DNA from: a virus
Length of the DNA stretch: 45,606 nucleotides
Strand: one strand, 5' to 3'
IMG/VR virus record: IMGVR_UViG_3300046314_000453
Location: 1-45,606 of that record
Position numbers and translations under genes: made by a program. The notes below the pieces were generated by a model that had not been told where the DNA came from, ran no database searches, and worked only from the letters and a program-made list of their open reading frames with translations. Positions 8,542 through 45,606 of this stretch are shown here, in pieces (the stretch's first letter is position 1; each line of letters begins with the position of its first letter).

Positions 8542-8905
8542 CGCTTGGATCTCCCATCTTGGTAAACTCAATAAGCCCCTCGACCAAAACACTCGCAAGA
8601 AACGCGCTCAGGCTTTGCCCTTTCATTCTGGCCCGAGTCTCATAGGTGGTCGGAAACCATCCAAAGTCGCAAAGCCTCGACTCGATTGCAAAGGCAATGT
8701 CATGCTCGTCTAGTACAACGTTGCCGCTCTTTGCAGCTATGACAACATTGCCGCTCTTCGTAGCGTCCCTCGACAACTTACGAGCCACAACAACGTCAAG
8801 CCGATACCCAAGGTCTTCGGCTACCTTGTTCCAGTGGGCTTTGTTCTCAAAGACTTCGCCCAGTCCAGAGTCAAAAACCTTTTGCACTTCAGTCCAGTTT
8901 GTCAT
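8471..8905 (-). CDS. Hypothetical protein, paralogue of the 7859-8212 product
   Basis: A 144-residue protein whose ATG overlaps the stop of the coupling ATPase (ATGA). Its helical pattern W-x-x-V-x-x-x-F-x-x-GL-x-E and its SLSAFLASVLVEGLI segment match the 117-residue protein downstream of the HTH gene. In addition it has a short tandem repeat (KSGNVV twice, about residues 50-64) and a C-terminal CPGC pair. The 3' end overlaps the HTH start by about 70 bases. Function unknown. Confidence 0.7.
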   Translation of the reverse strand: MTNWTEVQKVFDSGLGEVFENKAHWNKVAEDLGYRLDVVVARKLSRDATKSGNVVIAAKSGNVVLDEHDIAFAIESRLCDFGWFPTTYETRARMKGQSLSAFLASVLVEGLIEFTKMGDPSDEEKYLEQIRRQQCPGCGDTDII

Positions 8906-10191
8906 TTCAATGCCTCAATCATTTCGCTAGTAACGTGGATACCGAGACGACCGAGATCACCGACGGTCATTCGGGGTAATACTTGATCACTATCGGGCCG
9001 CAACGTTCTCGCTGCGGGCTCCTTACTCAGGGTGACATCATCCCGAAAGCGGCAATCAAACTTGCCCGACTCATCCGGGAAGTCGAAGTAGCCCTCGATG
9101 CGGTCCTTGGCGTAGTTTGCCTTCTTCAAACACTGCCGCAATTCATCCGGCAACACGTTGGGCCGCATCTTGACTGACTTATGCTTGTCATCAATCTGTT
9201 CAACGACCTCAACGGCCCCAAGGCAATCACTGGCAAACTTAGCGGTCTTAACGCCGTTAATCTTGAGGAACAGTTTGTAATCGGCAGCGGATAGGATTGT
9301 GTCGGTTCTTTCCTTGCCGAACCTCCCCTCCACCATCGATACTTCATGGGCGGTCAGGCAGGTGGAGATTCCACTCTTGGCTCCGCGTACGATGTTGTGC
9401 TCGATGCAGTCCAATGGCTGCAATGTTGCAAACTCATCAATATCGAAAAGCACAACTTCCTTGCTCTGCCGTGAGAGATACCGCGTTGAGGTATAATCGA
9501 ACAGGAACGCGAACACCTTATCCAACGATGCCGCGTATTCATCCGACCATTCCAATACCAATACTCCACTTTGTATGGGAAGCGTTATTCGCTTCTTGCA
9601 GGTCATATCGATAGCAGCAAAAACACCCAACGGCCCGAACCTTGAAACGAGCGTCACCTGGGTATCTCGCTTACTATCGTTACCGCCGAACACCCCATAA
9701 GGATTACCGAGATCAGCCGCTACGCTCAAAAGAGTTTGCAATGTAGGGTTGCACGTTATCCGCACGATGTCGGCAAGCAATGCTTTACCTGGTGCGAGCT
9801 TGTGCAACAACGCCGTGCAGTTCTCGATCATAAGCCTGCACATCGATTGAAAGAACTCGTCCTTTTGGTCTGCAATCGAAGGGCTCAATTTACTCGCAAG
9901 GAGCTGCCGCCCCGTAGCGGTGGTTATCATGCTCGCAAAATCAATCCCAACACCATCAGCGTATTTCGTGCTGACGGTGTATATCGGTGTCCCTTTCGGC
10001 GCTTTGTCGAGGTACCAGTCATACATCTCATGGGCATTGTCCAAGGTGTACACAATGGCACCACCGTTAACGTAGTCCCTACGGATACGCTTCAGCAGTG
10101 CCGACTTGCCACTTCTCGGGCTACCGAGGATGAGCACACGAAGCGGGCCATCGTTGGTGTTGAATGTGTGGTCTCCTAGTCTGATTTTCAT
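8902..10191 (-). CDS. TrwB/TraD-like coupling ATPase lacking a membrane anchor
   Basis: A 429-residue P-loop ATPase. Walker A is GSPRSGKS (residues 23-30) and Walker B is VVLFDIDEF (246-254). The region VLVLEWSDE to FATLQPLDCIEHNIVRGAKSG follows the order seen in type IV coupling proteins: a strand, a helix before Walker B, then DE(F/L)A-L and (G/A)xKxG. The two transmembrane helices usually found at the N-terminus of TrwB or TraD are missing; the protein begins directly with the RecA-like fold. Two small membrane proteins precede it in the operon, and a relaxase precedes those, so a DNA pump acting with the relaxase is the best reading. An FtsK-like or Zot-like ATPase is the alternative. Confidence 0.8.
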   Translation of the reverse strand: MKIRLGDHTFNTNDGPLRVLILGSPRSGKSALLKRIRRDYVNGGAIVYTLDNAHEMYDWYLDKAPKGTPIYTVSTKYADGVGIDFASMITTATGRQLLASKLSPSIADQKDEFFQSMCRLMIENCTALLHKLAPGKALLADIVRITCNPTLQTLLSVAADLGNPYGVFGGNDSKRDTQVTLVSRFGPLGVFAAIDMTCKKRITLPIQSGVLVLEWSDEYAASLDKVFAFLFDYTSTRYLSRQSKEVVLFDIDEFATLQPLDCIEHNIVRGAKSGISTCLTAHEVSMVEGRFGKERTDTILSAADYKLFLKINGVKTAKFASDCLGAVEVVEQIDDKHKSVKMRPNVLPDELRQCLKKANYAKDRIEGYFDFPDESGKFDCRFRDDVTLSKEPAARTLRPDSDQVLPRMTVGDLGRLGIHVTSEMIEALK

Positions 10192-10457
10192 AGCGGCCTA
10201 CCTCGGATGTTCTTATACTTCGGCATGTCGCCGATGATTACACCCCACACGAGAGCGCCAAAGATTGCGGATGCAATTCCAAAGTTGCGACTTTCGTTGT
10301 GGTCGAAACCGAACCAGCTGAAGGCTAGGTAAGCTGGAACGGTAAACACCGCTGCAACAAACGTCATGATGATCGCTCCAACAATCATCCTGAATAGCCA
10401 GTCAACGATGTATATGAAAGGGCTGATGAACAACGCCCAAAGGAATTTCAATATCAT
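10188..10457 (-). CDS. Small multi-pass membrane protein
   Basis: About 89 residues from ATG 10457; the frame is open further to 10532 but that would overlap the previous gene more. Three hydrophobic segments are visible, around residues 3-20, 24-50 and 60-78, and the C-terminus is basic (KYKNIRGRPL). Its TGA overlaps the ATG of the coupling ATPase. With the next membrane protein it lies exactly where a coupling protein would have its own anchor, which suggests it docks the ATPase on the inner membrane. No family recognised. Confidence 0.7.
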   Translation of the reverse strand: MILKFLWALFISPFIYIVDWLFRMIVGAIIMTFVAAVFTVPAYLAFSWFGFDHNESRNFGIASAIFGALVWGVIIGDMPKYKNIRGRPL

Positions 10458-10459
10458 CT

Positions 10460-10690
10460 TTAAGACCCTTTCTTCCTTGCGACATAAATACCGCAGCCCG
10501 TAGCGAAATATGCAATGGACCAGGAAAGCCACTCCGGTGGCTCCGCTCTACCAAAGCAAAGCACTACCGGAACCACTGCAATGAAGACTACGAACATCCC
10601 AACCTCTAGGACGACGAACGATAGTACGAGCCATCGCCACAGCGTGATTGCTGCGGACCTGCCGACCTTGTATAAGGCTTCTTTTTTCAT
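10460..10690 (-). CDS. Small two-pass membrane protein
   Basis: About 76 residues from ATG 10690, which overlaps the relaxase stop (ATGA); the frame upstream of this ATG lies inside the relaxase gene. A basic amphipathic N-terminus (KKEALYKVGRSA) is followed by a hydrophobic segment at about residues 18-46, a short loop with PPEW, a second segment at about 52-70, and a basic end. Two helices around a short loop match the topology of a coupling-protein anchor, so it may supply that anchor in trans. Confidence 0.7.
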   Translation of the reverse strand: MKKEALYKVGRSAAITLWRWLVLSFVVLEVGMFVVFIAVVPVVLCFGRAEPPEWLSWSIAYFATGCGIYVARKKGS

Positions 10691-11994
10691 AACGACTGAC
10701 CTCTTTTTTGCTCTTGCTTCTCCCACAACTTCGGGCCGATGACCTTCACCGACCACCCATGCTTTCTCGCCAGCATCCGTAGCTGGTCTTCTTGTTCTTC
10801 GGTCTTAATCGCCTTGCCGCGAATGATGACCTTGGTACCTTTTGGCAACGTTAACTTTGGAACCCTGGCCAACTTGAATGCCTTCTTGCCTATCGCGAGA
10901 GCGTGGTCCAATGAATCGCACTTTGTTCGTCGTATCGCTGTAATTGCTGCACGATGGCCGGTCATGGATGTTGGTTTGCTAACGTCCTCAACGAATTGAT
11001 CGAGGTTACGCACCCTGACCTTTTCCTGCCCTTGAGCTTTGACAATCGCCCAGGCTTTGACAGCCCGCACAAAAGGCTCCTTGATGAGGTCTTGATAAAT
11101 GCTTTGCCAAAAGCCCCTTGGTTGTTCGAGCTTCTGGGCCTGGCCGTCGTTGGCAAAAACCTTTGCCCACTTCTTTGATTCTTCGCGAATGTCGAGATTC
11201 TTTTGCTTCTTTGGTCGCGTATTCTTCAGGGCGTAGGCCAACGTCTTACCCTTTTTCGGCAGCTTCCTGCCCTTCTTAACCTCCTGTTCCTTGATGTACT
11301 CTATTGCCTTTTCTTTCCGCGCCGTTCGATTAAACTTATTCGTGATGCCCTTGGCGATTGCCTGCTCTGACTTATCATCGAAGTCCATTGCAAAGCCCGT
11401 AGCCTTTTCAAGGCTGCCGCAAAGGTCGATTTGCGTGATGCGATTGTCAGCCTTGATGTTGTGAAACGCGGGCCGAGCGTCCAACGTTCTTATCTGCTGT
11501 GTCTCTTTAACGATACACTTGTCAGCTATGAATACATGGACGTGGTACGATGCATGGCCTTCACGAGTCGAGGCGTGAACCATGCTCACAGCTAGAAGCT
11601 CGCACTCTTTCTTTACTGCACCACCTGCCCCAGTGCGGGCCGCTAATCTTTGCTCCAACCTATCAAGCAGCCTTTGCACCACTGGCTTGATGCCTTCATG
11701 CACCGCCTTTTGTTGTCCCTCCCAGGACATCATCGCCATGGCTTTGGATACCGAGGGCGATAGAAGAATTGTGGCCTCAAGGAAAGCCATCTTGTTTAGC
11801 TGAGCCGTCTTCGATATTGGCTCGCCATTGGGCATAAGCCCTTTCGAATACTGAATGATGTGAAATGGATCGGTAAAATCGATGCCTAGTTTGTCGGTGC
11901 CATCGGTGCCGAAAATGCCAAGCTGCAAAGCCTCTTTGATGACTTCTTTTTCTCGGAGGTATTTGCCATCGTTGTGGTTGTTGAGCTTGAGCAC
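10687..11994 (-). CDS. MobF/TrwC-like relaxase
   Basis: A 435-residue protein with the TrwC-type relaxase domain at residues 1-230. Visible are Tyr12 near the N-terminus (candidate nicking Tyr), a segment LLSPSVSKAM at the place of the family's FSAPKSVS, and the metal-binding histidines in VHASTREG (His140) and YHVH (His151, His153). The two or more N-terminal tyrosines of TrwC are reduced to one. A basic helical region follows, and the helicase half of TrwC (about 1000 residues) is absent. The start is GTG 11994, with no Shine-Dalgarno and only about 28 bases after the ncRNA terminator. Role: nicking at an oriT for transfer, or rolling-circle replication. Confidence 0.85.
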   Translation of the reverse strand: MLKLNNHNDGKYLREKEVIKEALQLGIFGTDGTDKLGIDFTDPFHIIQYSKGLMPNGEPISKTAQLNKMAFLEATILLSPSVSKAMAMMSWEGQQKAVHEGIKPVVQRLLDRLEQRLAARTGAGGAVKKECELLAVSMVHASTREGHASYHVHVFIADKCIVKETQQIRTLDARPAFHNIKADNRITQIDLCGSLEKATGFAMDFDDKSEQAIAKGITNKFNRTARKEKAIEYIKEQEVKKGRKLPKKGKTLAYALKNTRPKKQKNLDIREESKKWAKVFANDGQAQKLEQPRGFWQSIYQDLIKEPFVRAVKAWAIVKAQGQEKVRVRNLDQFVEDVSKPTSMTGHRAAITAIRRTKCDSLDHALAIGKKAFKLARVPKLTLPKGTKVIIRGKAIKTEEQEDQLRMLARKHGWSVKVIGPKLWEKQEQKRGQSL

Positions 11995-12021
11995 GGCATA
12001 GGGCTTTCAGGGTGGAAGAAC

Positions 12022-12870
12022 GAAAAAGGGGACTCCGTTCCCCAAGAACAATCAACGTGTCGAACTTTCGAGCACGTTTCGCACGTATGCCGAAACTGGC
12101 ATACCAGCAACACTGGCGAGCCCCCCAAGCCTTTCGCGTAAAACCATCCGGGTATCTTGCTCATTGTTCCATTCCTGGTAACACACTAAGCAAGCAAGCT
12201 ACCCACATCCTCCTAGGTGGTCTCTGTCCTACTGTCCGAATGACAATGCCCGACCGCTGCCTTGCAGTCTGACGACACGCTAAAACTGAGATGAACCTTT
12301 GGACTCCGCCCGTAGTCGCTAACAACCTCCTTTCTTTCATACGGTTGCGTTGTACACGAGACGCGCTTTACGACTCCCTAGAACCATTACGCCTGAGCGT
12401 GGGAGTCGCTCCCGAATTGATGCCGGACGTCATGCGGTAGTCATGTCGCTATTAGCAGTTACGCTAAGTGGCGAGCGAGTCACCACAAGGATTCCTCCCC
12501 GCGATACTCACCCCGCATCGTGCGGGCTTTCATCGACTCAACGAGCAAGCCACGATTACCGATCTCGCTCGTCCGATTCGCAATTTGGCACCATCTCTAT
12601 CCGCATTTACCCCAATGCCTTACGCTACTCACCACCGAGCGTCACCGCTTGATGGCTCCAGTTCAGGGCAAGGTAACGCTCTAAAGGCCCTCCCTCTAAA
12701 GCGTCCCCTCGTCACGGTCCTTCCGTGATTCGTCCGACACTCCATCGTCGCAACAAAATCCTGCACGGCTTTTATTTTCCTTGCACCCGCCGGGCACCTC
12801 TCGATGCAAACGGGCGCGACCTAAGTTTATGTTGATAGTTACGCGACACCTTGAGGATCGCACATCAAGG
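12022..12870 (-). ncRNA. Candidate giant structured phage RNA (GOLLD/ROOL-like)
   Basis: About 850 nt with no credible gene in an otherwise gapless genome. Read on the - strand it is packed with helices: 12849-12870 (6 bp); 12783-12817 (GCGCCCG/CGGGUGC enclosing GCAUC-GAGA-GGUGC); 12712-12728 (6 bp); 12675-12705 (13 bp); 12540-12573 (10 bp); 12512-12526; 12468-12486 (7 bp); 12452-12467; 12371-12408 (8 bp plus inner ACGC-UCAG-GCGU); 12085-12104 (7 bp); 12054-12078. GUCGCG (12847-12842) can pair long range with UGCGAC (12752-12747). Several helices use G-U pairs possible only on the - strand, and the RNA ends in an intrinsic terminator. Size and phage setting fit GOLLD or ROOL; family membership is unproven. 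An oriT with repeats is the alternative. Confidence 0.7.
12023..12043 (-). terminator. Intrinsic terminator at the 3' end of the ncRNA
   Basis: On the - strand, GGGGA (12043-12039), a six-base loop and TCCCC (12032-12028), followed directly by TTTTTCG. It ends the structured RNA and at the same time lies about 28 bases before the relaxase start, so the relaxase operon must depend on read-through or on a promoter inside the RNA region. Confidence 0.8.
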
Positions 12871-12872
12871 GG

Positions 12873-13469
12873 CTAACCGTACATCTTGGAAGCGACGGCC
12901 AGGACATTATGAGCATATAACCTACCCTCCGGCCCAAGGTCTTTGATGATGCCCTTGAGGGACTTTGCTTTATTCTTTGCGAGAAGGTTATCCACCCTCC
13001 CATAACCTTGGTTGTATGCGGTCAAAGCCAGCTCTTTGTCACCCTTGTAATAGTCGATAAGGTGCCTCAAATAAGCCGCCCCGATAAAGACATTCTGCCT
13101 GTGGTCGAATGGATTGTATCGACCACCTACGTTCAATCTCGCGTGCCACTCTCTGCCCGTCCCGTCAAGCAATTGAGATAGGCCCTTGGCCCCGACCGGA
13201 CTGACCGCGTTAGGATCTTTACCGCTCTCGATTCTCACAAGTGCATGCACTAGACTTCTAGGGATGCCCTGCTTATCTGCTGCCTGGTTGATAGCGGCAT
13301 CGATAATTGAAGGTGGTGCTTTCGGCTTAGTCCCCCACCCTCTCAGAAGGTCATACTTCGCCTTACCCGATGGCAGTTGCCCAACTCCAGAAACTCCAGA
13401 GTTGGGCGTCAGGAAGACGAAGCCGAGTAGTCCGGCTGCTATAAGTAAGCCGACATCCTCGGAGGCCAC
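12873..13469 (-). CDS. Soluble lytic transglycosylase (SLT/GH23), VirB1-like
   Basis: A 198-residue protein with an N-terminal hydrophobic signal or anchor segment (about residues 6-21), a linker, and an SLT domain from about residue 53. The catalytic Glu81 is in RIESGKDPNAVSP, followed by GAKGLSQLL and the closing YLRHLI and LTAYNQGYGRV motifs. It cuts peptidoglycan glycan strands in the periplasm. In conjugation systems VirB1 homologues open the wall for the transfer channel; in phages similar proteins act in DNA entry or lysis. The separate GH24 lysozyme at 16463 makes a lysis role less needed. Its start abuts the membrane protein stop. Confidence 0.88.
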   Translation of the reverse strand: MASEDVGLLIAAGLLGFVFLTPNSGVSGVGQLPSGKAKYDLLRGWGTKPKAPPSIIDAAINQAADKQGIPRSLVHALVRIESGKDPNAVSPVGAKGLSQLLDGTGREWHARLNVGGRYNPFDHRQNVFIGAAYLRHLIDYYKGDKELALTAYNQGYGRVDNLLAKNKAKSLKGIIKDLGPEGRLYAHNVLAVASKMYG

Positions 13470-35822: not shown

Positions 35823-36407
35823 CTATGCGCTCCAGATCTTGTAAGAGTCCAGTGCATAGTTCAGGGTCTTGGGAACCTCCATTGCGGCCCCGCCCCCGAC
35901 TGTAACCGGAGCTCGATTCATAAAGAAATGCCCAGCGAGCATCATCACAATGAAGCGTAATCCCTCGGGAACATCCGAGTAAGATGCACCATAGCCCGCA
36001 GTAAAATTGACCTGCACGGCATTTGGCCTATAGTCTTCAGTTGCTGGATAGGTTGACGATGCCGTTAGGCCCACTCGCCCAAGGATTGAGGTAGCATCGA
36101 CGTGATAATTCGAGGATGCCCAAGTCGTCAGAGCATCCGAGGTGTCGTAGTACTGAACGCTCTGAACCGATACCAACGGGGCAATCGGAATCTCAATAAC
36201 CCCGCCAGTCGGAAAGTCTTTCAGCTCAAGCCGGAAAGTTCTGCTAATAAGCATCCTCCGGGTCTTTGTTTCGACGTAATTGATTGCCGCATTGGCGTAC
36301 ATCACCAATAAAGCATCCTCATCAGTAGTTGTGAGGCGAAGATGTGCTTTAAGTTCGGAGAGACTGACGGCGAGAGCGGCAGGGGAGGCTGTTTGAATCC
36401 AGGGCAT
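35823..36407 (-). CDS. HK97 gp6-like head-tail connector
   Basis: A 194-residue protein: LSELKAHLRLTTTDEDALLVMYANAAINYVETKTRR gives the helical gp6 core, followed by a beta region (FRLELKDFPTGGVIEIPIAP, PNAVQVNFTAGYGASYSDVPEGLRFIVMMLAGHFF). This matches gp6-like connectors, which form a ring below the portal. Its start is ATG 36407. Confidence 0.88.
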   Translation of the reverse strand: MPWIQTASPAALAVSLSELKAHLRLTTTDEDALLVMYANAAINYVETKTRRMLISRTFRLELKDFPTGGVIEIPIAPLVSVQSVQYYDTSDALTTWASSNYHVDATSILGRVGLTASSTYPATEDYRPNAVQVNFTAGYGASYSDVPEGLRFIVMMLAGHFFMNRAPVTVGGGAAMEVPKTLNYALDSYKIWSA

Positions 36408-36424
36408 GAGTCCCCATGAAAGTG

Positions 36425-36628
36425 TTAACGCTTAACGAGATGCAAGCGGCGTTCTGATGGAAAACGCACCATGTTTTCAACTGGCGGTGCGCTCGAAAGA
36501 ATCTCGACAAGCCCCTTCAACTGAAGGTCATAGGCTTCATCAATCTTTAATTCCACCTCCTGATGCGGCTGGATAACAACTCCAGCTCGCGTCAGGATAG
36601 GAAGCTCTTTCGAGCGCACTTTTATCAT
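36425..36628 (-). CDS. Hypothetical small head-region protein
   Basis: About 67 residues from ATG 36628, which follows the previous stop (36630) immediately; the longer frame to 36694 lies inside that gene. Basic ends surround a beta-like middle (GVVIQPHQEVELKIDEAYDLQLKGLVEIL). It is placed between the capsid-associated protein and the gp6-like connector. No family recognised. Confidence 0.65.
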   Translation of the reverse strand: MIKVRSKELPILTRAGVVIQPHQEVELKIDEAYDLQLKGLVEILSSAPPVENMVRFPSERRLHLVKR

Positions 36629-36629
36629 A

Positions 36630-37103
36630 CTATGACAGAGGGTCTGGCATTGATGTAGCCTGGTAGCGAGCACAAACGCCGAGGGCGATTGCACAAGCAG
36701 TCACAGGGTCATTAACGCCTTCTGTGAGCTTAAGAGCGAGGAACTGCTTCGTAGCTGGAAGCTTAGCCATCTCGACCTCAATCTCGTAGATCGTATCTTC
36801 GTTTGCTGTGGTTGTAAAACCAGCAGTTGTAGCGTCAGTAATCGAACCCATTACAGCAGAAGCGCCAGTCGTCTTTTTTCTGTACTTGAACTCAACAGCT
36901 TCAGCACTTGTTCCAGCTACATCAGTTGCAGCAAGAACAGTTACTACAGCAGTACCAGTGTTAGTGCCGGCAGTTGTAGCAGCCAAAAGGAACTCAACGC
37001 GGTCGAAGAGTTTTCCGTTGATATAGTCCCCCGCTGGGTTCGTGTTGTAACGATCCGCAGCAGGAGAGTGAGAGTTAATTATTGCGAAAGATTCAGAAAG
37101 CAT
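36630..37103 (-). CDS. Capsid-associated (decoration-type) protein
   Basis: A 157-residue beta-rich protein immediately downstream of the major capsid gene: DRVEFLLAATTAGTNTGTAVVTVL, AVEFKYRKKT, IYEIEVEMAKLPATKQFLALKLTEG, CARYQA. Many siphoviruses have a protein of this size and pattern (volunteer beta sandwich, ending in ARY) after the capsid gene. Head decoration is a positional inference. Confidence 0.65.
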   Translation of the reverse strand: MLSESFAIINSHSPAADRYNTNPAGDYINGKLFDRVEFLLAATTAGTNTGTAVVTVLAATDVAGTSAEAVEFKYRKKTTGASAVMGSITDATTAGFTTTANEDTIYEIEVEMAKLPATKQFLALKLTEGVNDPVTACAIALGVCARYQATSMPDPLS

Positions 37104-43139: not shown

Positions 43140-43570
43140 GCTTCTCCAAAATATTCACAAGCAAATTGAAAGTTACGGCAGGTTAGAAACGATCTATCCC
43201 TTTCAGGGAACATTGACACCGCCGACAGGTCAGAGAATGGAAGCTCCTCGGCTCCCTCAATTATTAGCGTATCCCCCGTGCATGCCCTCTTCGAGCACGT
43301 TGCCCCCTCTTTTACCCTAACTGGGAAGTGTAGGTTCTTTGCCCATACATACGGTGAAGCCACGCCGCAGAAATACACGATAGCGTTTTCAGGGTACTCC
43401 ATCGGAATATCTGCGTTGACCTTCATCTGCAATCCAACCTGCTTGAGGTACTTACCTTCAAGGCACCGCGCACAATGCTGCGAGCTATCAAAACCCTCAA
43501 CTGTCTTTGCCCAAAAGTATTTCCATCCACGCAAAGAGGAATTCTCTGATTCGATTCTTATAGTAGGCAT
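43136..43570 (-). CDS. Cys-rich protein of unknown function
   Basis: A 144-residue protein with nine Cys, including CARC near residue 33, CSKRAC near residue 92 and two more near the end (TCRNFQFAC). The middle is beta-like (NAIVYFCGVASPYVWAKNLHFPV). It may hold one or two structural zinc ions. Its ATG lies inside the last codons of the methyltransferase fusion gene, so they are coupled. It may be a partner in modification or protection of the DNA end; no family known to me. Confidence 0.7.
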   Translation of the reverse strand: MPTIRIESENSSLRGWKYFWAKTVEGFDSSQHCARCLEGKYLKQVGLQMKVNADIPMEYPENAIVYFCGVASPYVWAKNLHFPVRVKEGATCSKRACTGDTLIIEGAEELPFSDLSAVSMFPERDRSFLTCRNFQFACEYFGEA

Positions 43571-44961
43571 AACAAAGCTTCCTTGATATCTTGGTCCCTT
43601 CCTAGCGTTCGACCCGACTTACTAACCTTCATGTTAAACTCTCGCTCAAGTGATGCGCCCAAAACTTCTGCATCAATGGATCTCACCGTATTCTTAACGT
43701 GGCACTGCCACCCCGTACTGTGCTCCGCTCCTAACTTGACCACGCTTAGCTTTCGCCTGTCGCAGATTCGCTCAACGTCTTGCTTGGAATGGAACTTCTG
43801 ATAGAACCAACTGCCTTTCCTATACAGTGCTGTTAGTCCGTTGTTGTCCAAGAATTCAATGTCTCTTTTTGCGCTGACTCTCTTGGTCGTCTTTGCTATT
43901 GACTCAACTCTTTCTTTCGATCTTCCGGAGAAGAAAATATCGCCCCCCGGCTTACAAAACCCTTGAAGGCAATTAAGCACATCATCCTCTGCCTGTTGAC
44001 TATCAACTGAATTTAACACGTAGTCACAGATTACCGCATCGTATCTTCCATGGGCCTTAATAGTTTTGATGACTTGATCGACCATTCGATTAACCTCGCC
44101 TACATCAATTGACTGAGTGCCGGCTGCTCTTCTAAAGAACTCCAGTTCTTGAACGTAGTACCCCTGTGACTTTAATCGCTTTGCGTAATCACCTTGCCCG
44201 CACCCGAAGTCCAAAAGCCTGCCGCCCGGGTTAGCCTTGAGCCATGGGATTGCATATACATCATAGGTTGGAGACTTGTTTTGCTTTCCTGATGGACCGT
44301 CGCGAAGCCTTAGCATCTGAGCGAACGTTTGGATGTATGTATCCCTTGGTAATTTGTCGTAATTGAATACCCCGTACTGAGCCGACAAGCACTCCCTAGC
44401 CTGACGCTCCACGCTTTTCTTAACAACGTAGACCAATAAAGGCTTGTTCATTGTCTTGCAGGCTAAGGCGTACTGAGCTGCGTGAAAGATTCGGCCATCC
44501 TCCCCACACACTGCCGCACCCCAGAGCCCATACTTAGTGACCAGATACATTATTTGCTGCCGGATTGGAGCCCCGCTTGAGCGAAGATTCCCCTTGATGG
44601 CCTCTGGCTGAATGACCACGTACCCTGACGCATCGAGCGGTAACGTTACTGAGGCTGCTTCATCACCGAGGTCTAGGTCTGTGCCGTTGTGAAGCTGATT
44701 GAACCTGACCTCATCATAGAGACTAGCGTCAGAGGACAAGAGGAACACGGGGGCTGTTGATGCACCTAGGGAGCGGAGGGCTCTTGCTCTTTGATGCCCG
44801 GCTACTATCGTTTTGTTTCTAGCTATGATCGGCTTGACGCACCCGATGGTTTGAAGCGATGCCTTTAGTCGCTCAATGGCAGAGTCATCGATGAATCGAG
44901 GGTTGTATTCAGCACCCGCGAGCTTGCTTATGTCGTAGTCGAGATGAAGGCCCTTGATCAT
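43558..44961 (-). CDS. ParB-domain and SAM methyltransferase fusion
   Basis: A 467-residue protein. Residues 1-95 form a ParB/Srx-like domain (IDDSAIERLKASLQTIGCVKPII, IVAGHQRARALRSLG). A linker of about 100 residues with VVIQPEAIKG follows, and from about residue 215 a class I methyltransferase: LLDFGCGQGDYAKRL (SAM site), YDAVICDYVLNSVDSQ, CKPGGDIFFSG. There is no DPPY/NPPY motif, so the target is not clearly an amino group in DNA; a nucleotide, tRNA or protein target is possible. Such fusions occur near terminase genes of other phages. Stop and start overlaps with both neighbours indicate an operon. Confidence 0.85.
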   Translation of the reverse strand: MIKGLHLDYDISKLAGAEYNPRFIDDSAIERLKASLQTIGCVKPIIARNKTIVAGHQRARALRSLGASTAPVFLLSSDASLYDEVRFNQLHNGTDLDLGDEAASVTLPLDASGYVVIQPEAIKGNLRSSGAPIRQQIMYLVTKYGLWGAAVCGEDGRIFHAAQYALACKTMNKPLLVYVVKKSVERQARECLSAQYGVFNYDKLPRDTYIQTFAQMLRLRDGPSGKQNKSPTYDVYAIPWLKANPGGRLLDFGCGQGDYAKRLKSQGYYVQELEFFRRAAGTQSIDVGEVNRMVDQVIKTIKAHGRYDAVICDYVLNSVDSQQAEDDVLNCLQGFCKPGGDIFFSGRSKERVESIAKTTKRVSAKRDIEFLDNNGLTALYRKGSWFYQKFHSKQDVERICDRRKLSVVKLGAEHSTGWQCHVKNTVRSIDAEVLGASLEREFNMKVSKSGRTLGRDQDIKEALLCLL

Positions 44962-45575
44962 TCTGCATCTATCTTGCGAAGAAGGTAACCACCAAAGCCA
45001 AAGAAGCTCCCCGTCTCTTGAACGTACCCGTCAATACATTCCTGTAGTCCGTTCATTTCATCAACTTCAAGGGGGACTCTGTTTTTCCCAATTACTAAGT
45101 AACTAATATCGCATCCGCCGCTCTCCTCTGATGTCGGCGCTATTGGTTCGAGATCGTCCGGGGCTCTCATGATGGTCGCTAACTCACCTTCATTAAAGGC
45201 GAGCAATCCTAGATCCATCCCAGTTTCTTGCAGCTCTTCGATTTCAATTTTCAATAGGTCTAGATCCCAACCAGAATTGAGCGGTATCTTGTTGTCAGCA
45301 ATAGCTAGGGCTTTAGCCTGAGCATCGGTTAGGTAGTCAAGCACGAGGCACGGCACTTTAGTCATCCCAAGCATTTGCGCTGCTAGTACTCGACCATGGC
45401 CGGCAATGATGGTCTTGTCTTCTTTGACTAGCACCGGATTAGTGAAACCGAACTCCCGAATACTTGCAGCGATCTGAGATACTTGCGATTCAGTATGCGT
45501 TCTGGTGTTTCTTGCGTAGGGAATCAAACTGTCCGTGCTTATCTGCTCAATCTGTGTCGTTCTATCCTTGCCCAT
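44958..45575 (-). CDS. ParB-like nuclease domain protein
   Basis: About 205 residues from ATG 45575 (TTG 45584 is the alternative; GAGG lies close to both). Residues 10-110 form a ParB/Srx domain: LIPYARNTRTHTESQVSQIAASIREFGFTNPVLV, IIAGHGRVLAAQMLGMTKVPCLV, ALAIADNKIPLNSGWD. In phages this domain is usually fused to an adenine methylase; here the methylase is missing and an unrelated 60-residue end is present. It could guide the neighbouring fusion protein to its site. Its end overlaps the next gene (ATGA). Confidence 0.85.
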   Translation of the reverse strand: MGKDRTTQIEQISTDSLIPYARNTRTHTESQVSQIAASIREFGFTNPVLVKEDKTIIAGHGRVLAAQMLGMTKVPCLVLDYLTDAQAKALAIADNKIPLNSGWDLDLLKIEIEELQETGMDLGLLAFNEGELATIMRAPDDLEPIAPTSEESGGCDISYLVIGKNRVPLEVDEMNGLQECIDGYVQETGSFFGFGGYLLRKIDAE

Positions 45576-45606
45576 ATTCCTCAAAAGTTCAAAACACCCA
45601 ATTATG

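Follow-up and report, generated by a model that had tools for sequence, protein, structure and literature searches.

A conserved giant structured RNA of a probable new family beside the lysis genes of a rare tailed-phage lineage

We describe a giant structured RNA encoded on the minus strand of a tailed phage, at positions 12022-12872 of the window (the whole stretch of DNA analyzed here, an IMG/VR virus record of 45,606 bases); that a conserved RNA of this kind exists at this site we regard as close to certain. It is best regarded as representing a new family among the large 'ornate' phage RNAs, and not as a member of GOLLD or ROOL. As judged from its sequences, the family would comprise RNAs of about 730-860 nt carried by a rare lineage of tailed phages. 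The broader statement, that this is an uncatalogued family of large structured non-coding RNA that is made late and acts in trans, is in our view probable when any step of oligomerization is left aside. The window RNA and its homologue in a second phage have in common a long-range closing helix, covarying hairpins, three fixed GNRA tetraloops, and invariant unpaired motifs, and both sit directly 3' of a lytic transglycosylase gene, where the lysis module ends. The giant RNAs of phages are elaborate and abundant, and to our knowledge no function is known for any of them; a family that lies outside Rfam, is supported by covariation, and adjoins a lysis module without tRNA neighbours provides an independent case for the features that such RNAs have in common.

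Results

The genes of the window lie on the minus strand nearly throughout, in the order terminase, portal, S78 protease, HK97-type capsid, tail tube, tail proteins, phage lysozyme, and SLT transglycosylase, followed by a TrwC-like relaxase, a TraD/TrwB-like coupling protein, and a tyrosine integrase. The RNA region is 3' of the tail fibre, phage lysozyme, and SLT genes, within some 880 bases without a convincing gene that separate the conserved upstream neighbour, the SLT lytic transglycosylase (12873-13469, minus strand; Pfam PF01464, E 2e-24), from the relaxase (10687-11994, minus strand; PF08751, E 3e-19). The end of the transglycosylase ORF at 12873 and the start of the relaxase ORF at 11994 agree with the boundaries of the RNA, which run from the transglycosylase stop to the T-run of a terminator, both ends being approximate. 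A scan finds no promoter near the window RNA, and the gap between the transglycosylase stop and the RNA leaves no room for one.

The sense strand of 12022-12872 contains 11-15 stops per frame, with a longest open frame of at most 68 codons; antisense open frames reach 109 codons, but the homologue does not have them, and no protein frame is common to the two RNAs. Folding of the minus strand of 12015-12872 gives a minimum free energy of -349.4 kcal/mol, where dinucleotide shuffles average -305.3 +/- 6.4 (z -6.9), while the plus strand gives z -2.5. In the predicted fold a stacked long-range helix closes a single domain, after which come two hairpins and then the terminator. Further minus-strand stretches of 850 nt, sampled along the phage, range from z +1.1 to -3.2 save two, one of which overlaps the RNA region and the other of which, at 36000-36848, reaches z -5.7; the single-sequence score of the RNA is thus unusual and not unique, and it is the comparative test that decides. 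As a separate observation, 150 bases at 36450-36599 on the minus strand, among the head genes, fold with z -6.0 (none of 200 shuffles was as stable), and may be either a further structured element or coding sequence with unusual structure.

Searching with the terminase brought up a second phage, IMGVR_UViG_3300034200_001057; the two terminases are 79% identical, and the record of this phage matches the window RNA region at the DNA level with E 3e-9. The homologous RNA (L013:9290-10036, minus strand; own fold z -6.3) lies directly 3' of an SLT transglycosylase with 41% identity to that of the window, and the two RNAs are 53.5% identical in a MAFFT alignment and 62.5% in a structure-aware one. 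A further contig, IMGVR_UViG_3300046313_000435, repeats the window sequence across the RNA region at 100% identity and adds no information, so that the comparison draws on two independent RNA sequences from three contigs. The upstream neighbour, the transglycosylase, is constant in both phages and the downstream neighbour differs: 3' of the second-phage RNA come a 243-aa ORF, a 145-aa ORF, a DUF932 gene, and, further on, an HTH gene on the plus strand. The relaxase of this phage is not adjacent to the RNA; it lies about 3.5 kb downstream, behind other genes, one of them on the opposite strand.

RNAalifold applied to the plain MAFFT alignment yields 156 pairs, of which 43 are changed on both sides. 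The consensus-fold energy of the minus strand stands at z -10.5 relative to 60 shuffles of columns within conservation classes, versus z -2.8 for the opposite strand under the same scheme. The count of two-sided changes, 43 against a shuffle mean of 29.8 and a maximum of 41, is less telling than the energy, since every shuffled alignment was allowed to refold into its own optimum. As negative controls from the same phage pair, two stretches of the terminase gene, the coupling-protein (T4CP) gene, and the transglycosylase gene gave z between -0.8 and +0.3, against -9.3 for the RNA. The structure-aware alignment contains 187 pairs, with 55 two-sided changes kept, 19 one-sided, and 1 broken; it was built with the folds, so these pair counts favour structure, and the 3' third is less certain. 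When one phage was folded alone and its pairs were read across a sequence-only alignment, which is an unbiased test, 61-68% of the RNA pairs were kept, and only 36-44% once partners had been displaced by 1-3 columns; for the comparably diverged T4CP and SLT genes retention was 41-46%, no higher than after displacement. G-U pairs occupy 60 of the 374 pair cells.

These results confirm and strengthen the observation of the first-pass annotation, which had read about 850 bases without a convincing gene as a structured RNA of the minus strand and had named covariation as its own test: the stop-rich sense frames and the strand asymmetry, in single-sequence and consensus folds alike, agree with it, covariation is present by energy, two-sided changes, and unbiased pair retention across the two sequences, and the homologues keep no common protein frame.

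Individual helices, all on the minus strand, follow the same pattern. The 5' strand of the closing helix, UCGCGUAACUAUC (12834-12846), pairs with its 3' strand, GAUGGUUUUACGCGA (12134-12148), at P > 0.9; GAUGGUUUU is identical in the second phage, which also retains UCGC/GCGA and AYYAUC/GAUGGU. The stacked long-range helix joins 12857-12819 with 12122-12218, most segments having P of about 0.9. Three hairpins carry conserved tetraloops on stems of changed sequence. In the hairpin at 12783-12817 the GAGA loop (12799-12802) is constant and four of the five apical pairs show two-sided changes (GCAUC-GAGA-GGUGC in the window, AUAGG-GAGA-CUUAU in the second phage); a two-part stem at 12610-12668 (16 pairs, 4 two-sided changes) is capped by a conserved GUGA (12642-12645), the stem of its hairpin 12656-12631 differing in sequence between the phages; and the hairpin at 12479-12507 bears a GGAA loop (12492-12495) on 12 pairs with 3 two-sided changes, 5 one-sided, and none broken. 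The long-range helix and the GNRA-type ends seen in the first pass, the former offered there only as possible, are accordingly both present in the homologue too.

Two-sided changes also occur in the hairpin UCACGG-AAGGA-CCGUGA at 12712-12728 (2 of 6 pairs), in a long hairpin at 12669-12711 (6 of 17), at 12452-12467, where UUAGC/GCUAA corresponds to GAGUC/GACUC in the second phage (4 of 5), and at 12370-12409, where GCGACUCCC/GGGAGUCGU corresponds to CCUUCUCUU/GAGAGAAGG (4 of 9). The motif GCGACGAUGGAGYGUCG at 12735-12751, on the 5' side of a junction or internal loop, is identical in both phages except for Y, and the likewise conserved YCAAUUCGGGA lies at 12410-12431 together with the 3' strand of a long-range helix (12731-12740/12420-12429; 4 two-sided changes) that reads GUGUCGGACG/CGUCCGGCAU in the window and GCGUCGAUUG/CAAUCGCCGU in the second phage; the former motif and UCAAUUCGGGA face each other across this helix, invariant apart from Y. 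Sequence comparison of the two phages adds the conserved motif AGGAGGAUG at 12204-12214. Among the unpaired columns we found no convincing conserved pseudoknot or kissing loop. The terminator of the first pass stands in the window, where a scan places a terminator-like hairpin GGGGA/UCCCC followed by UUUUU at 12028-12043, but the scan finds none 3' of the second-phage RNA.

Against known RNAs, Rfam 15 at gathering score reveals nothing beyond chance in the whole window, and cmscan of the RNA region and its homologue against all 4227 families returns no family at E <= 5 or E <= 10. The GOLLD (RF02032; E <= 10) and ROOL (RF03087) models, applied directly, match neither phage record, while the published ROOL of plasmid pMP118 is found with the same tools over the full model at 130.4 bits (E 1.5e-28); this positive control was a ROOL alone, and the Rfam GOLLD model spans only 416 positions. 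Neither the window nor the second-phage stretches examined contain a tRNA gene according to ARAGORN. GOLLD resembles the window RNA in being about 800 nt long, phage-borne, rich in GNRA-capped hairpins, and likely expressed late; unlike it, GOLLD is often, though not always, near tRNA genes, and a correspondence in helix order is not established. ROOL, of phages and plasmids, is likewise a giant ornate RNA. OLE, raiA, HEARO, and the other large bacterial RNAs of Rfam are also large and structured, and none matches at E <= 5. The size class of GOLLD and ROOL suggested in the first pass is right, and of the three options it left (one of these two, a distant relative, or a new class) membership has failed in the model searches and the new class is the best supported.

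A further likeness is to an RNA of about 800 nt in ICP1, which is the most abundant transcript of that phage and lies beside the lysis cluster without tRNAs (PMC7567579). It is similar in length to the window RNA, adjoins lysis genes, and has no tRNAs near it; its locus (L170:4098-5108, minus strand) matches no Rfam family at gathering score. There is no sequence similarity or common motif between the two, and we claim no homology. The ICP1 RNA may itself be another uncatalogued giant RNA.

Further members were sought with short motifs or with a 149-position model built from the two sequences, on samples of genomes. With both RNAs as blastn queries, the phage and plasmid collections gave no match; motif scans of IMG/VR and GTDB genomes gave no third member; a covariance-model search of the whole records of 30 TerL relatives returned only the known homologue; and the model search of 369 Gammaproteobacteria, 399 Burkholderiales, and 385 Alphaproteobacteria genomes yielded no accepted member. 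The other motif-scan matches in IMG/VR and GTDB were dismissed as chance by nhmmer, the covariance model, and coding context, and one weak genome match was rejected as lying inside an ORF with the other RNA motifs absent nearby. More distant members of the family may exist.

Discussion

Gene order suggests that expression is likely late, at the end of the lysis operon. The RNA would be made as the 3' end of the lysis or late transcript, because no room for a promoter is left between the transglycosylase and the RNA, and would then be released as a stable RNA. Since the gene behind it differs between the phages, it would act in trans as a structural RNA and not as the leader of a downstream gene; on the evidence of the two gene arrangements we hold trans action to be very probable. 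Fixed GNRA loops on variable stems are the pattern that would be expected of A-minor docking sites, within or between molecules. Folding through GNRA and A-minor contacts could give a compact unit that assembles with its own copies into an RNA particle, by analogy with GOLLD, which rises during lysis and forms a 14-mer cage, and ROOL, which forms an 8-mer (PMC12286853). Such self-assembly is the most likely mode of action, although we put it forward tentatively: no conserved pseudoknot or kissing loop was found, so nothing in this analysis shows oligomerization. A bolder proposal, and a doubtful one, is that the RNA belongs to a third, independent class of phage RNAs, which has no sequence relationship to GOLLD or ROOL and whose members assemble themselves into RNA-only particles at lysis. 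If it is true, RNA cages arose or diverged repeatedly in phages. The two diverged natural sequences, of about 730-860 nt, make the question of whether other giant phage RNAs form cages directly testable.

Instead of forming an RNA-only particle, the RNA might be the scaffold of a ribonucleoprotein such as a late phage machine, for example as a packaging-motor RNA like phi29 pRNA or through binding to lysis or host proteins. Its late position would suit this role, and the large conserved unpaired motifs GACGAUGGAG, UCAAUUCGGGA, and AGGAGGAUG could be protein sites; however, the transglycosylase alone remains as a neighbour, with no other partner gene, and phi29 pRNA is far smaller than the window RNA, so we consider a scaffold rather unlikely. 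It is improbable that we are looking at a remote GOLLD or ROOL that is invisible to the Rfam models and works by the same cage. The shared size class, phage origin, richness in GNRA loops, and place at the end of the late genes would fit such kinship, as would, for GOLLD, the short Rfam model and a 5' half that is known to vary (PMC12286853), but neither homologue gives a match even at E 5-10 or with single models, the ROOL used as a control reaches 130 bits across its entire model, and the tRNA genes that often accompany GOLLD are missing from the window and the examined parts of the second phage.

Readings that tie the RNA to the relaxase fare worse. The first-pass annotation took it for the leader of a relaxase operon, and the window terminator, which stops about 30 bases before the relaxase start, would suit a cis-acting leader or attenuator; yet the second phage has other genes next, and the conserved neighbour is upstream and not downstream, which argues that the RNA ends a late or lysis transcript and makes a leader very unlikely. 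Relaxase and coupling-protein genes close by, and inverted repeats of the sort typical of oriT regions, might equally suggest that the conserved hairpins serve at the DNA level, for instance as an oriT for the relaxase or a packaging site. The fold is strand-specific, however (z -10.5 versus -2.8), G-U pairs are frequent in it, and the element stays with the transglycosylase while the second-phage relaxase is kilobases off; we give a DNA element scarcely any credence. As for a hidden or decayed protein gene, the antisense open frames are countered by strong covariation between homologues that lack a common frame, and the idea is barely conceivable. A structured RNA that acts in trans at the end of the late genes is the reading we retain.

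Apart from the RNA, genes for a relaxase and a TraD/TrwB-like coupling protein occur in both phages next to one for a tyrosine integrase (window 8902-11994, minus strand; L013:2796-5742), and it is unusual for a tailed phage to have conjugation-type DNA-transfer genes of its own. The window relaxase has no tblastn match in the phage collection or plasmids, nor the second-phage coupling protein in the phage collection, and PHROGs gives no match for relaxase and coupling protein. A coupling-protein search of phages and 398 Pseudomonadota genomes was likewise without a match. The second-phage relaxase (L013:4435-5742) has no Pfam match, yet it aligns over its full length to the window relaxase at 31% identity, and Y12 and an HxH pair are common to the two. 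Upstream of the terminase, the minus strand of window 43558-45584 encodes a ParB-like nuclease and a ParB-methyltransferase fusion.
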